A stretch of 23,799 bases of DNA from positions 1 to 23,799 of the IMG/VR virus record IMGVR_UViG_3300036760_000099. One strand, written 5' to 3'. Position numbers and translations under genes: made by a program. Each line of letters opens with the position of its first letter. Within the stretch, counting starts at the first letter, position 1. Below the pieces are notes generated by a model. That model was not told the origin of the DNA. It did not search any database and saw nothing but the letters and a program-made list of their open reading frames with translations. Source of the DNA: a virus. Positions 1 to 4,985 of the stretch are shown piece after piece.

Positions 1-17
1 ATCCCCAACCGCCCCCA

Positions 18-46
18 TTGACCCCCTTAAAACCCTCTGCTATGAT
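18..46 (+). promoter_or_regulatory. Sigma70-type promoter for the late operon
   Basis: A -35 hexamer TTGACC (18-23; 5 of 6 to TTGACA) is separated by exactly 17 nt from a -10 hexamer TATGAT (41-46; 5 of 6 to TATAAT). The predicted transcription start would lie near 52-54, at the first base of the tandem repeat array. It points toward the packaging genes and has no gene between it and the small-terminase-like gene. The hexamers and spacing are seen directly; activity is inferred. It would be read by the host vegetative RNA polymerase, so this phage need not depend on its own polymerase for the late operon. Confidence 0.6.
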
Positions 47-53
47 CTAGCAT

Positions 54-115
54 CGCCCTCGCGCCCTCGCGCCCTCGCGCCCTCGCGCCCTCGCGCCCTC
101 GCGCCCTCGCGCCCT
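54..115. repeat. Tandem 8-bp repeat array in the presumed late leader
   Basis: Seven perfect head-to-tail copies of CGCCCTCG (54-109) are followed by a partial copy CGCCCT (110-115). One further copy plus a partial one lies at 135-147, inside codons 2-6 of the following gene. The array begins right where transcription from the promoter at 18-46 should start, so it would be transcribed as a C-rich leader. On the - strand it gives GGG tracts every 8 nt (G3N5 repeated), which fits a G-quadruplex motif. Possible roles are terminase recognition (pac-like), a rut-like or translational control element, or simple slippage. The sequence does not decide between them. Confidence 0.9.
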
Positions 116-129
116 ACACCTACTCTCCC

Positions 130-654
130 ATGCCCGCCCTCGCGCCCCAAACTCTCTCCCACACGCATCAGGATATTGCGCGGTGGATGCTGGAGAACCC
201 CGAGAAGCCCCTGCGGGAGTGCGCGCAGTTCTTCGGCTATACCCAGAGCTGGCTCTCGACGCTGATTCACTCGAGTGCCTTCCGCGCGCACATGGCGGGG
301 CTCCAAGGGGACGCAAATAATGTGACCCTCTCCGACGTACCTGCGCGGCTGCGCGGGATTGCCGACACTGCGCTCGACAAGCTCGGAGAGTCGCTCGACT
401 TCGTCATAACGGAAGGGGTCGGTGCGCGGATGGATCGAGACTTCGTGCGCGACACGGCGGAGATGGCGCTGAAGGCACTTGGCTACGGTTCCCGCGGACG
501 AGACTCTACGCCCGCGCCCGAAGGTGGGCAGACGACAATCTACGCAGATCGACTCATGATCGTGCAGGCGCGAGAGCGCATTTTGGACCGGGGCCGTGCC
601 CCCGATTCCCCTGAGCCGGTGTTGACCATTGAACACATTCCGTCCGGCGCGTGA
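130..654 (+). CDS. Small terminase subunit-like DNA-binding protein
   Basis: Protein of 174 aa. Residues about 27-52 form a helix-turn-helix-like segment (LRECAQFFGYTQSWLSTLIH), typical of the DNA-recognition domain of phage small terminase subunits. These select viral DNA and activate the large subunit. The middle part is helical and acidic, and the C-terminus is Pro/Gly-rich. Position right before the packaging genes supports the call. The ATG at 130 is the first start after a stop in this frame (43-45), but no purine-rich ribosome site precedes it; the leader there is C/T-rich. An in-frame ATG at 187 would cut into the HTH region. The first codons contain a stray copy of the upstream 8-bp repeat. 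It could be another HTH regulator, but size, domain order and neighbours favour terminase. Confidence 0.6.
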   Translation: MPALAPQTLSHTHQDIARWMLENPEKPLRECAQFFGYTQSWLSTLIHSSAFRAHMAGLQGDANNVTLSDVPARLRGIADTALDKLGESLDFVITEGVGARMDRDFVRDTAEMALKALGYGSRGRDSTPAPEGGQTTIYADRLMIVQARERILDRGRAPDSPEPVLTIEHIPSGA

Positions 655-1129
655 TGTCACTAAGGCTAGACTCCTCAAAGAACCCCCATCTTTCGTCAGG
701 GAGTACTCTCGCCGAAAAGGCCGGCGCTGGCACGGAATCAAATACCAACGAGAGGTCGATGAAGCATTTACACGACGCTTTGGGGATGCTTACGTCGTCG
801 GACCTTGGATCGAATTCTACACGGAGGAGAGTAACGAACGACGATATTGCCAGCCTGACGGAGTTCTTATTGAAATCCCGCGCGGCCGTATTACGATCGT
901 CGAGGTCAAATACTCGCACACCGAGCTCGCGTACTGGCAATTGTTCGACCTCTACTTACCCGTTCTTCAGTTTCTCTTCCCGCCGCCCCTCTGGACTTTC
1001 GCGGCCATAGAAGTTTGTTCCCGGTTTGACGTTGCAGTAGCGTCACCGAGAAAACCGGTGATGAGAAAGGAAATACTAGATGCGCTCCCCCGCGAATTCA
1101 ATGTACACATCTGGCGCCCCGTCGGGTAA
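629..1129 (+). CDS. PD-(D/E)XK nuclease-like protein
   Basis: Protein of 166 aa. The catalytic signature of the PD-(D/E)XK superfamily is readable: D77 in QPDG, then E92-V-K94 on the next strand, with acidic residues E42/E45 in an N-terminal helix as possible first ligands. A later Q104-to-Y109 element in a helix recalls the RecB/Cas4 branch. Such enzymes cut DNA using Mg2+. It starts at TTG 629, overlapping the previous gene by 26 nt. A stop at 623-625 and the lack of any nearby ATG or GTG downstream make this start the only sensible one. A nuclease wedged between small and large terminase genes suggests a role in DNA maturation, recombination or host DNA breakdown, but the exact job is not shown. 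Confidence 0.6.
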   Translation: MNTFRPARDVTKARLLKEPPSFVREYSRRKGRRWHGIKYQREVDEAFTRRFGDAYVVGPWIEFYTEESNERRYCQPDGVLIEIPRGRITIVEVKYSHTELAYWQLFDLYLPVLQFLFPPPLWTFAAIEVCSRFDVAVASPRKPVMRKEILDALPREFNVHIWRPVG

Positions 1130-1256
1130 GACTAAGAAAAAGACGCGCACGTCGACCAAGTTCGCGCCGGCGAAGAAGGGGAAACGTGTGCCGAAAGTTT
1201 CCCCCTCAGGCAATGAACCAAAGATGGCCTCCATGTACGGAAAGCTCGACCTTTGA
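1080..1256 (+). CDS. Small, very basic protein of unknown function
   Basis: Protein of 58 aa beginning MRSPANSMYTSG. The ATG at 1080 is preceded by AAAGGA with about 8 nt spacing, a good ribosome site; an internal ATG at 1101 lacks one. The middle is packed with Lys/Arg (GKTKKKTRTS, KFAPAKKGKR) and it ends MASMYGKLDL. It overlaps the nuclease gene by 50 nt in another frame, and its stop shares bases with the TTG start of the large terminase (TTGA), so translation is probably coupled. The charge suggests nucleic-acid binding or disorder. A terminase accessory protein is possible, but no family is recognised. Confidence 0.55.
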   Translation: MRSPANSMYTSGAPSGKTKKKTRTSTKFAPAKKGKRVPKVSPSGNEPKMASMYGKLDL

Positions 1257-2719
1257 ACAACGTTGCCGATCTCGTTGCGATCACGCCGGAGGAGATAACG
1301 CTCCTTGGTGCGGAGGACAGTGAGTTTTTCAATCGGCACTTTTTCCCGCGGACCTTTCGACAAGAGTCCCCCGAGTTCCATCGTGACGTCGATGCCCTGC
1401 TCGACGGCCCCGACCGCTACGTTGCGCTGAAGATGTTTCGCGGCAGCGCCAAGACAACGAAAGTGCGTGCATTCGCCGCGAAGCGGATGTCGTATGGCAT
1501 CTCCCGCACGATTGTCTTTGTTGGCAACGCGCAGAAGAATTCGATCTATTCCCTACGCTGGATTCGAAAACAAGTCATGTCGAATTCTCCTTGGGCCTCC
1601 CACTTCGGCCTAGTTCCGGGCAGTCCGTGGACAGACGAGCACATCTGTATCGTGCACACGAAGCTGGGGATCGAGATAAATGTCATCGCTCTTGGCGTTA
1701 CCTCACAGATACGCGGTATCAACCTCGACGACTATCGTCCCGATCTTATCATCCCAGATGACATCGATAATGAGGAGACGACCAACACGCCCGAGCAGCG
1801 CGAGAAGACGAGTGATCTATTGGGGTCGCTCGAGAAAGCGTTAGCGCCGCCGACGGAAGACCTCCACGCGAAGATGGTCGTCCTTCAAACGCCAATCAAT
1901 GCCTTTGACTATATCACGACAATCTCGAAGAGTGATAAGTGGAAATGCGTTACCTTCTCTTGCTTTGACGACGCGGGGAAGAGTCGTTGGGAGGCGCGGT
2001 TGCCGACGGCATTCCTTGAGCGCGAGAAGCGTGAGCATATACAGCTTAACAAACTCCACCTCTGGCTGCGCGAGATGGAGTGCAAGATCGTCAACAAGGA
2101 GAGCGCGAGCTTCCGTTTCGACTGGCTTCGCTACTGGACGGAATTGCCGAAAGGCCTCGACGTCATTCTTGCCATTGACCCCGCATCGAGTGAGGCGAAG
2201 GACGCGGACGATCAGGTGTTGGGCGCGGTGGGCTTCGCGGGGCGCGACCTCTATCTCATCGCCTACACCGCAGAGAAGGGTGAGATGCCCGATCGTCTCT
2301 CCAACACCTTTTTCAACTACATTCGTGACTTCGGCCCGCGCAAGGCGGCGGTCGAAACCGTGGCGTATCAACGCATTCTCAAGTGGTATCTTGAAGAACA
2401 GATGCGCAAGCAACGGATATTCCTCTTGGTCGAGGCAGTCGATGACAAGCGGAAGAAGAGTGACCGCATTCTCCAAGCACTTCTCGAGCCAGCCGCGCAC
2501 GGGCATCTCTACGTCCACGCGTCGCATACGAAATTTATCGAACAGTTCTCAGAGTACTCCCCTTTCTCGCGCGGGCACGACGACGTCCTCGACATGGTCG
2601 CCATCGCCGTCGCTAGTCGGCGCTCGGGCACGGGAACGACGTACGAGGGGGAGTACGATCGAATCCTTGATGGTGAACGTATGATACCCGACCTTGAAGA
2701 GTGGCGCGTTGCAATATGA
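1253..2719 (+). CDS. terL: Terminase large subunit
   Basis: Protein of 488 aa, a usual length for TerL, the packaging motor that pumps DNA through the portal and cuts concatemers. The ATPase half shows Walker A RGSAKTT (63-69, K67) and Walker B LIIPDD (165-170). The RNase H-like nuclease half shows the Asp in LAIDPAS (D309), the Glu in VETVAYQ (E368) and the acidic cluster HDDVLD (442-447), matching the three-metal-ligand pattern of TerL nucleases. It starts at TTG 1253 with GGAAAG upstream; the next in-frame Met is residue 61, next to Walker A, so the TTG is needed. It overlaps the small basic gene by 4 nt and the HNH gene by 4 nt. Both activities look intact. Confidence 0.92.
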   Translation: MNNVADLVAITPEEITLLGAEDSEFFNRHFFPRTFRQESPEFHRDVDALLDGPDRYVALKMFRGSAKTTKVRAFAAKRMSYGISRTIVFVGNAQKNSIYSLRWIRKQVMSNSPWASHFGLVPGSPWTDEHICIVHTKLGIEINVIALGVTSQIRGINLDDYRPDLIIPDDIDNEETTNTPEQREKTSDLLGSLEKALAPPTEDLHAKMVVLQTPINAFDYITTISKSDKWKCVTFSCFDDAGKSRWEARLPTAFLEREKREHIQLNKLHLWLREMECKIVNKESASFRFDWLRYWTELPKGLDVILAIDPASSEAKDADDQVLGAVGFAGRDLYLIAYTAEKGEMPDRLSNTFFNYIRDFGPRKAAVETVAYQRILKWYLEEQMRKQRIFLLVEAVDDKRKKSDRILQALLEPAAHGHLYVHASHTKFIEQFSEYSPFSRGHDDVLDMVAIAVASRRSGTGTTYEGEYDRILDGERMIPDLEEWRVAI

Positions 2720-3018
2720 AAAAGCGTGCGCACATCGAGTTACGAGCAACGCCTCTTTGGGCAAGTACGCGTGAGATTTACGCCATATACAACGCCGCAG
2801 CGGATCGACGCGATTTGGGTGAGGACGTACAGGTGGATCACATCATACCTCTTACGCATCCTCTTGTTTGTGGTTTACATTGTGTGGAAAATCTTCGGAT
2901 TATTTCGGCGCGTGAAAACTCGTACAAGTGTAACTATTTTAACGCAACTAGTCCGGCCAATGTTGGTCTTGTAGCTCGGTCTACCCCTGCCCAACAAGCT
3001 TTTGACCTACCATGCTAA
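2716..3018 (+). CDS. HNH endonuclease
   Basis: Protein of 100 aa with a clear HNH core: D41-H42 in VDHIIPL, then CGLHCVENLRII with N59, then ENSYK with N68. This is the H-N-N variant common in small phage HNH proteins, where the pattern VDHIIPL..CGLH..NL.II...EN..K is familiar. HNH enzymes cut or nick DNA. In many phages an HNH protein next to terL, terS and portal is needed for packaging-related cleavage, and this position matches. The ATG at 2716 forms an ATGA overlap with terL; a GTG at 2701 would only add five residues. The end overlaps the portal start by 7 nt. A homing endonuclease is an alternative, but the tight operon fit argues against recent insertion. Confidence 0.8.
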   Translation: MKKRAHIELRATPLWASTREIYAIYNAAADRRDLGEDVQVDHIIPLTHPLVCGLHCVENLRIISARENSYKCNYFNATSPANVGLVARSTPAQQAFDLPC

Positions 3019-4985
3019 AGCTTAAACCCGAGATCGTTGATCTACCCTACGGCAGCGAAAAGCATAAGAAGGTGCTTGAGGCCGTTATGCAGCGCGTGAA
3101 GATGTCACGGGATAAATTCTCCTCTGTCTTCTCCCGCTACGCGCTGGACGAGGAAGCGTATCGAGCGTATGTCAAGCCGACGGACAATGACAAGGTTCGA
3201 GAGCAGATACGAAAGGATGGCAAACCGCAGTTTACTACGATCTACGTTCCCTACACTCTCTCGATTCTGTGGGCGATGCACACGTATTGGTCGAGCGTCT
3301 TTCTCGGTCGTTCCCCGATTTGGCAGATTGGCGCGCGTCACGCAGAACCCCATCGAAACGTTCTTGCGCTCGAGGCGATGCTAGACTATCAAGTCTACTC
3401 CGGCAAGCACATGGTGCCATACTACATTTGGCTCATGGATGCGGGGAAGTATGGTCGGGGTATCGTGGGAACGTACTGGGCAGAGGACTACTCGACGATC
3501 ACGAAGGTCGAGGAAGTCGACGTCTCTTTCCTCGGTTACAATGTAACCAAAAAGAAGGTGAAGAATACGTATAAAGTCCCCGGATACACTGGTAATAAAG
3601 TGTATAATGTTCGTCCGCAGGACTGGCTGCCTGACCCGCGCGTACCCACGCATCGGTTTCAGGACGGAGAGTTTTGCGGGCGAACCGTCGAAGTGGGCTG
3701 GAATACGGTTTTGAAACGGCAGGATGAGGGTGTGTATTACAATGTCAAGGCCCTTCGTGATCTCTTGCGAGGTACTCGTAGCGTCAATCGGGACCAAGGC
3801 TCATCGACGTTGATTCTCCCCGACCAGATGGATACGTTGTACAATCAACTCGACTCGCAAGGGAAGAAAAAGAGCAGTGGTTTCTCCGACATTATCGAAA
3901 TGACGGTGGAACTTGTTCCGAAGGATTGGGAGTTGGGCACATCGACCTCGCCGCAGAAGTATATTTTCACCATTGGCAATGACTTGGTCGTTCTTTCGTG
4001 CCAACCATTTGGGGAGTTACACGACCAGTATCCCTTCTCGACGCTGGAGTTCGAGATTGAGGGGTATTCACTCAACAAACGTTCGATCTTCGAGATTGGT
4101 GAGCCGCTGAACAACACGCTTTCTTGGCTTTTTAATAGCCATATGTTCAATGTGCGCAAGACGATGAATGACATGCTCTTCGTCGATCCGAGCCGTTTCG
4201 TGATGAAGGACCTCACCGACCCAAATGCCGGAAAACTCGTGCGGGCGAAACCCGAGTTTTACGGACAAGATGTTCGTCAGGGGGTGCACCAGCTTCAAGT
4301 CGTCGACGTCACGCGGAGTCATATGCAGGATGCGCAGGGCGTCGCGGAAATGTTGATGCGAACCCTCGGTATGAATGATGCGATCATGGGTATGTTGGCG
4401 CCCGGGGGCCGTAAAACGGCGACAGAAGTTCGTACGAGTAGTACTGCGGGCGTGAATCGGCAAAAGACGACTTGTGAGTGGTTCTCCTCAATGGGGTTCC
4501 AGCCACTTGCCGACATGTTGATCGCCTCGACACAACAACATTACGATGGCGAACTCGAGTTCAAGATCGCAGGGGACTTAATGAACAATACAAGTCCCAT
4601 GTTGGTGACACCCGAGATGATCGCGGGGAAGTTTAACTTCGTAGCAGTCGATGGAACTCTCCCACAGGATCGTTACGCGATGGCGGCGATGTGGAAAGAA
4701 CTGCTTTTGGGCGCGAAACAGATGCCTGAGATCGGTATGAGGTATGATCTGGCCAGCATTTTCGGTTGGATCGCACAAATGAGTGGGATCAAGAATTTGG
4801 AGCAGTTTAAAGTGCAAACGGTCGACCCAGCGAATATCAATTCCATGGTACAATCTGGGAATGTTGTACCACTAGGAGAAGCAGGTGGCAACAGAGGAGG
4901 AACTCCAGCGTCTACAGGAGCTACAAGAGACTTTACGCAACTTTCGCAATCTGGAAGCGTCGCTGGGGTAGGTCGTGCGGGTTGA
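3012..4985 (+). CDS. Portal (head-tail connector) protein
   Basis: Protein of 657 aa directly after the terminase and HNH genes and before scaffold and capsid genes, the standard place for portal. Portals are dodecameric rings at one capsid vertex through which DNA is pumped. Length and composition fit a large podovirus portal. The N-terminus is helical and charged. The mid region carries EIGEPLNNTLSWLFNSHMFNV, typical of the wing/stem of such portals, and a later segment with GRKTATEVRTSSTAGVNRQK resembles the conserved stretch (TATEV) before the crown. The C-terminal 40 residues are Gly/Ser/Thr-rich and probably disordered. The ATG at 3012 overlaps the HNH gene. Few residues are diagnostic in portals, so order and the TATEV region carry the call. 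Confidence 0.82.
   Translation: MLKLKPEIVDLPYGSEKHKKVLEAVMQRVKMSRDKFSSVFSRYALDEEAYRAYVKPTDNDKVREQIRKDGKPQFTTIYVPYTLSILWAMHTYWSSVFLGRSPIWQIGARHAEPHRNVLALEAMLDYQVYSGKHMVPYYIWLMDAGKYGRGIVGTYWAEDYSTITKVEEVDVSFLGYNVTKKKVKNTYKVPGYTGNKVYNVRPQDWLPDPRVPTHRFQDGEFCGRTVEVGWNTVLKRQDEGVYYNVKALRDLLRGTRSVNRDQGSSTLILPDQMDTLYNQLDSQGKKKSSGFSDIIEMTVELVPKDWELGTSTSPQKYIFTIGNDLVVLSCQPFGELHDQYPFSTLEFEIEGYSLNKRSIFEIGEPLNNTLSWLFNSHMFNVRKTMNDMLFVDPSRFVMKDLTDPNAGKLVRAKPEFYGQDVRQGVHQLQVVDVTRSHMQDAQGVAEMLMRTLGMNDAIMGMLAPGGRKTATEVRTSSTAGVNRQKTTCEWFSSMGFQPLADMLIASTQQHYDGELEFKIAGDLMNNTSPMLVTPEMIAGKFNFVAVDGTLPQDRYAMAAMWKELLLGAKQMPEIGMRYDLASIFGWIAQMSGIKNLEQFKVQTVDPANINSMVQSGNVVPLGEAGGNRGGTPASTGATRDFTQLSQSGSVAGVGRAG

Follow-up and report, generated by a model that had tools for sequence, protein, structure and literature searches.

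A Perfect 8-bp Tandem Array between a Family-Type Promoter and a terS-Like Gene of a Phage with SU10-Type Capsid: Probable Origin by Replication Slippage

Results

The Window Carries a Late Gene Region Headed by a terS-Like Gene

The window, i.e., the whole stretch of DNA that was analysed, corresponds to the IMG/VR record IMGVR_UViG_3300036760_000099, a linear fragment of 23,799 nt (23.8 kb) from a phage with SU10-type capsid. The late genes in the window encode a terS-like protein, an endonuclease-like protein, the large terminase subunit TerL, an endonuclease VII-like protein, the portal and the major capsid protein. The features at the left end that are considered here are:

18 to 46, + strand: sigma70-type promoter TTGACC-17-TATGAT with a TG before the −10 box (10/12 matches), found at the same place in relatives
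52 to 53, + strand: predicted transcription start, A52 or T53, placed 6–7 nt past the −10 box from the position of that box
54 to 115, + strand: perfect tandem array of CGCCCTCG, 7.75 copies, absent from relatives
130 to 654, + strand: terS-like gene (174 aa; N-terminal HTH, then a long helix), starting with ATG and lacking a Shine-Dalgarno sequence
135 to 147, + strand: 13-nt copy of the periodic sequence (CGCCCTCGCGCCC) in terS codons 2–6, encoding ALAP
629 to 1129, + strand: gene following terS, related to the "putative endonuclease I" of Mel-JY34 and ABTNL-3
1253 to 2719, + strand: terminase large subunit (phrog_38, PHROGs match)

Among named phages, Microcystis phage Mel-JY34 (TerL 44%, capsid 61%) and Vibrio phage ABTNL-3 come nearest, both with a gene order resembling that of the window. 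A distant blastn search of window positions 1–4000 against phages gave no match, and no relative with more than 55% identity in TerL was found in the collection. Scanning viral contigs with TerS or TerL of the window as single proteins returned zero relatives, and alignments were required: with capsid, TerS and TerL profiles, relatives were gathered in three sets, giving about 130 terS-bearing loci. The gene at 629–1129, located between terS and terL, is kept throughout this phage group, and has no Pfam or PHROGs matches of its own.

The 174-aa protein was not recognised by PHROGs and Pfam searches, and a PDB sequence search gave chance-level matches only. Its predicted structure has an HTH at residues 11–46 (high confidence) and a long helix at 49–94, with weak fold matches to phBC6A51 2ao9 (E 0.2) and to several viral terminase small subunits. 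By its position before terL and by this model the protein is TerS-like, in agreement with the small-terminase-like gene proposed in an earlier note on this DNA. The same note had described a start codon without ribosome site, and indeed no Shine-Dalgarno match, even of 3 nt, precedes ATG130; AGGAG or AAGGA is present before the scaffold and capsid genes and several other genes of the window. TerS alignments place the starts of the relatives at ATG130 (MPALAP in the window, MALAA in Mel-JY34), so that the extra length of the window lies upstream of the ancestral start.

The Octamer Array Is Perfect and Has a Displaced Copy inside terS

TRF reported the array with period 8, 7.8 copies, 100% matches and a score of 124, by far the strongest tandem repeat of the window. 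It consists of seven full copies followed by CGCCCT, and such near-identical head-to-tail copies are a feature of short tandem repeats of the slippage type. The word GCGCCCTCG occurs 6 times versus 0.48 expected from shuffles. Seven tandem copies and an eighth within the first terS codons had been described before. Both were found, the eighth as CGCCCTCG at 135–142 with a match to the periodic sequence that extends over 13 nt, but it is one base off the register of the array (offset 81 = 10 × 8 + 1). The array makes up most of the 83 nt that separate the −10 box from ATG130.

The terS Promoter Is Shared by Many Relatives

The promoter consists of TTGACC at 18–23, a spacer of 17 nt and TATGAT at 41–46. 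Matches of 10/12 are rare, with two on the + strand and one on the − strand in the entire window. The predicted start at A52 or T53 falls 1–2 nt before the edge of the array, and the coincidence of start and array pointed out earlier thus holds to within this distance. A52 is the first base of an in-frame ATC codon, located where leaderless relatives (see below) carry ATG.

To compare relatives, the promoter was sought no more than about 200 nt away from the conserved TerS core in 108 terS loci, the window excluded. A promoter with at least 9/12 matches was present in 44 of these, mostly as TTGACA-17-TATNNT. Mel-JY34 and MW202489 have a promoter at terS as well, in each case with a ribosome site before the ATG; no sigma70-type promoter was found at terS in L116 and L216, two of the closest relatives. 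On this comparative evidence the proposed promoter, recurring with the same place and spacing, is real and is a trait of the family.

terS Is Predicted to Be Leaderless in Part of the Phage Group

The distance between −10 box and ATG differs among relatives. In about nine of them it is 6–8 nt, and eight of these nine have no ribosome site, while 30 of 35 relatives with a gap of at least 15 nt do have one (Fisher 6e-5 for the comparison with the short-gap class). In L012, L026, L051, L058, L075, L169, L183 and L189 the −10 box ends 6–7 nt before the terS ATG and a ribosome site is absent. L012, which is among the closest relatives (TerL 54%), reads TATGAT-6 nt-ATG, with the same TATGAT box as the window, and the N-terminus of its TerS aligns with ATG130. 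Zheng et al. took a signal of the TA type, about 10 bp ahead of the start, as the mark of leaderless genes (PMC3160421). We predict from these sequences that terS transcripts are leaderless in part of the phage group. The window itself does not follow this arrangement, since its gap is 83 nt and only the missing ribosome site fits. For this missing site, the leaderless part of the family is the simpler explanation on comparative grounds.

The Array Is Not Conserved in Relatives

The earlier note had considered the array a functional element and had named as a check the search for a repeat array between promoter and terS in related phages. None of the about 130 terS loci of relatives carries the octamer array and the unit is not conserved, which speaks against that view and is an outcome that the note had named as refuting it. 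A search for octamer words in relatives yielded a small number of scattered partial copies ahead of terS (L007, L039, L042), and the best motif matches were nearly equal in relatives (9.0/12) and in shuffles (8.7/12). Clear enrichment was seen for none of the words resembling the array. The 8-bp units seemed at first to have a flavour in common, which a permutation test dismissed: the period-8 units of five relatives came no closer to CGCCCTCG than permutations of their letters did (P = 0.75).

Tandem repeats as such are frequent upstream of terS, with 32 calls in 98 regions versus about 3.4 in dinucleotide shuffles of those regions. This enrichment, also seen against whole loci, vanished when other non-ORF DNA served as control: per 100 windows of 300 nt there were 33 calls upstream of terS, 32 in other non-ORF DNA and 7 in ORF DNA. 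Repeats of period 8 show a mild excess upstream of terS (5/98 versus 3/246 other non-ORF windows; Fisher 0.045, uncorrected, with 21 periods). The 7.75 perfect copies of the window are the longest perfect run in the set, in which most other repeats have 2–3 copies.

Outside the phage group, arrays of the same octamer (4 or more copies) appear sporadically in 30 loci, in GC-rich bacteria of many phyla and in unrelated contexts. This distribution is, as judged from the sequences, the pattern of simple sequence that arises repeatedly. Candidatus Viridilinea mediisalina (L086, L095, L107, L110) has arrays of the window's octamer and of similar octamers (TCCTCGCG, TCTTCGCG) at several loci. Apart from the window, a single viral contig, L002 from an unrelated phage, has an array of the window's octamer; the contig ends within at least 15 copies (1–126), about 330 bp upstream of its own terS-like gene and in opposite orientation. 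Another 8-bp array, imperfect and of about 7 copies (CTCACCGC), lies between promoter and terS start in L129 (75–135; identical in L131). Its unit is unrelated to that of the window, and a ribosome site is retained downstream of it.

Discussion

Replication Slippage as the Most Likely Origin of the Array

The family shares the promoter but neither the array nor its unit, and in its non-ORF DNA short tandem repeats of many different periods are frequent. Slippage is therefore the most likely explanation, and we assign a probability of roughly 0.6 to the view that the array, as a short tandem repeat specific to this lineage, arose by replication slippage and is not a dedicated control element. 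Neither the unit nor its copy number is conserved, as expected for a slippage repeat.

The ancestral junction of promoter and terS would have been leaderless, with the −10 box 6–8 nt ahead of the ATG and a ribosome site lacking. The array would then have been produced by slippage in the C-rich non-coding stretch that separates the conserved promoter from the start of terS. The presence of GCCCTCGCGCC in both the array and the terS codons suggests where the unit came from: expansion was probably seeded by GCCCTCGCGCC in codons 2–6, or had a common origin with it. As a consequence, the ATG would have been moved about 77 nt downstream, leaving a C-rich, weakly structured leader without ribosome site. 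The array may change terS expression as a side effect. We also considered phase-variable frame switching of terS by copy number. No ATG, GTG or TTG in frame with terS precedes the array and ATG130 is the first in-frame start, so a change in copy number would not shift the terS frame, and this candidate was rejected.

Slippage as origin of the array separates a conserved trait, the terS promoter that in part of the group abuts the start codon, from a likely accident upon it. The leaderless terS genes predicted for several phages of the group are the more general point, and one that can be tested.

Alternative Functions and Origins

None of the analyses yielded positive support for a function of the array. 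By analogy to phage SPP1, the array could be a pac site, or part of one, bound by the adjacent TerS. We regard this as unlikely, although it fares best among the alternatives. The array has the same position as the SPP1 pac (PMC4737164), the TerS model combines an N-terminal HTH with a long helix, and the array of L002 likewise lies upstream of a terS, although an unrelated one and with the array on the opposite strand relative to it. Lack of conservation is as such compatible with pac function, since pac repeats are only partly conserved between SF6 and SPP1, SF6 lacking the boxA repeats of SPP1, and the DNA-binding domain of SF6 TerS has little sequence specificity (PMC4737164). However, neither the array nor a motif is kept among relatives with related TerS, and these have no array in the interval. 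Moreover, a period of 8 bp does not match the turn of the DNA helix and should give no cumulative bend, which is the proposed recognition feature in SPP1/SF6. The contig ends of near-full-length relatives do accumulate in the 2.1 kb upstream of terS (11 of 35, about 1.6 expected), but many of them are overlaps of 99–127 nt in circular assemblies and thus do not mark cut sites. The idea that they represent genome termini was given up, because 6 of 10 contigs checked have such overlaps and were mostly broken at low-complexity sequence. The near-full-length contigs G004, G005, G006, G011, G012 and G025 show end overlaps of 99–127 nt, with the break upstream of terS and mostly at homopolymers or tandem repeats. 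As a pac element the array would be unusually easy to test.

A C-rich leader might also act as a rut-like (Rho-utilisation) or antitermination element that controls the late operon. The base composition is in favour of this idea, as the sense strand of positions 1–175 has 53% C and 15% G, whereas the remainder of the window has 26% C and 29% G, and in the frame of terS the leader lacks a recognised start codon. Such control is nevertheless improbable: the relatives' mean composition of the corresponding region is 30% C and 26% G, several of them have no leader at all, which makes a family-wide leader element impossible, and an Rfam search gave no match. In addition, CGCG pairing gives the RNA of the array a more stable fold than that of shuffles (−24.5 kcal/mol, z −2.5), while rut sites are unstructured.

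The GC-rich octamer arrays at phage terS promoters, i.e., those of the window, L002, L129 and perhaps L122, L143 and L148, might instead form a recurring class of packaging or leader elements with fast turnover, in which position and period are kept and the sequence drifts. We give this grouping somewhat less credence still than a rut-like leader.

Translation could in principle begin at the 5′ AUC (52–54) as a leaderless non-canonical start, so that the array would encode a TerS extension of 26 residues of the ALAPSRPR type with a frame dependent on copy number. The terS frame is open from 46 to 654, array included, and at the place of the leaderless relatives' ATG the window has ATC. AUC, though, makes a very poor start codon, ATG130 is the position to which the relatives' starts align (MPALAP versus MALAA), and an open frame across a GC-rich array comes cheap, which together make this start highly improbable. 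An artefact of assembly close to the end of the contig, affecting the array or its copy number, is just as improbable: in relatives, simple repeats upstream of terS are frequent end points of contigs, and L002 ends inside its array, but at 62 bp the array does not reach the length of a usual short read, and it is flanked by unique, coding-consistent sequence on one side and the family-type promoter on the other.

Comparison with Known Systems

The terS genes of relatives in which a TA-type −10 box lies 6–8 nt ahead of the ATG and a ribosome site is missing resemble the TA-led class of leaderless bacterial genes (PMC3160421). The window differs from this class, as its ATG lies 83 nt past the −10 box with the array between the two.

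In the pac of the Bacillus phages SPP1/SF6, direct repeats span the terS promoters and the terS start (PMC4737164), and the array at 54–115, between the promoter at 18–46 and ATG130, is placed alike. SPP1 has three different repeat sets, a mapped cut and a footprint, while the window has a single perfect 8-bp array that is known from sequence.

The pac site of phage P1 contains hexamer repeats, with Dam-site hexamers interspersed. It shares with the window several copies of a short unit, in P1 at a packaging site; the P1 hexamers are interspersed and do not form a perfect tandem array.

Compared with short tandem repeats and minisatellites that arise by slipped-strand events, the array of the window is longer and more perfect than others in the phage group and lies between a promoter and a start codon. 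It is like them in its perfect head-to-tail short units in non-coding DNA, in a unit and a copy number that are not conserved, and in the sporadic occurrence of its unit in unrelated GC-rich genomes.
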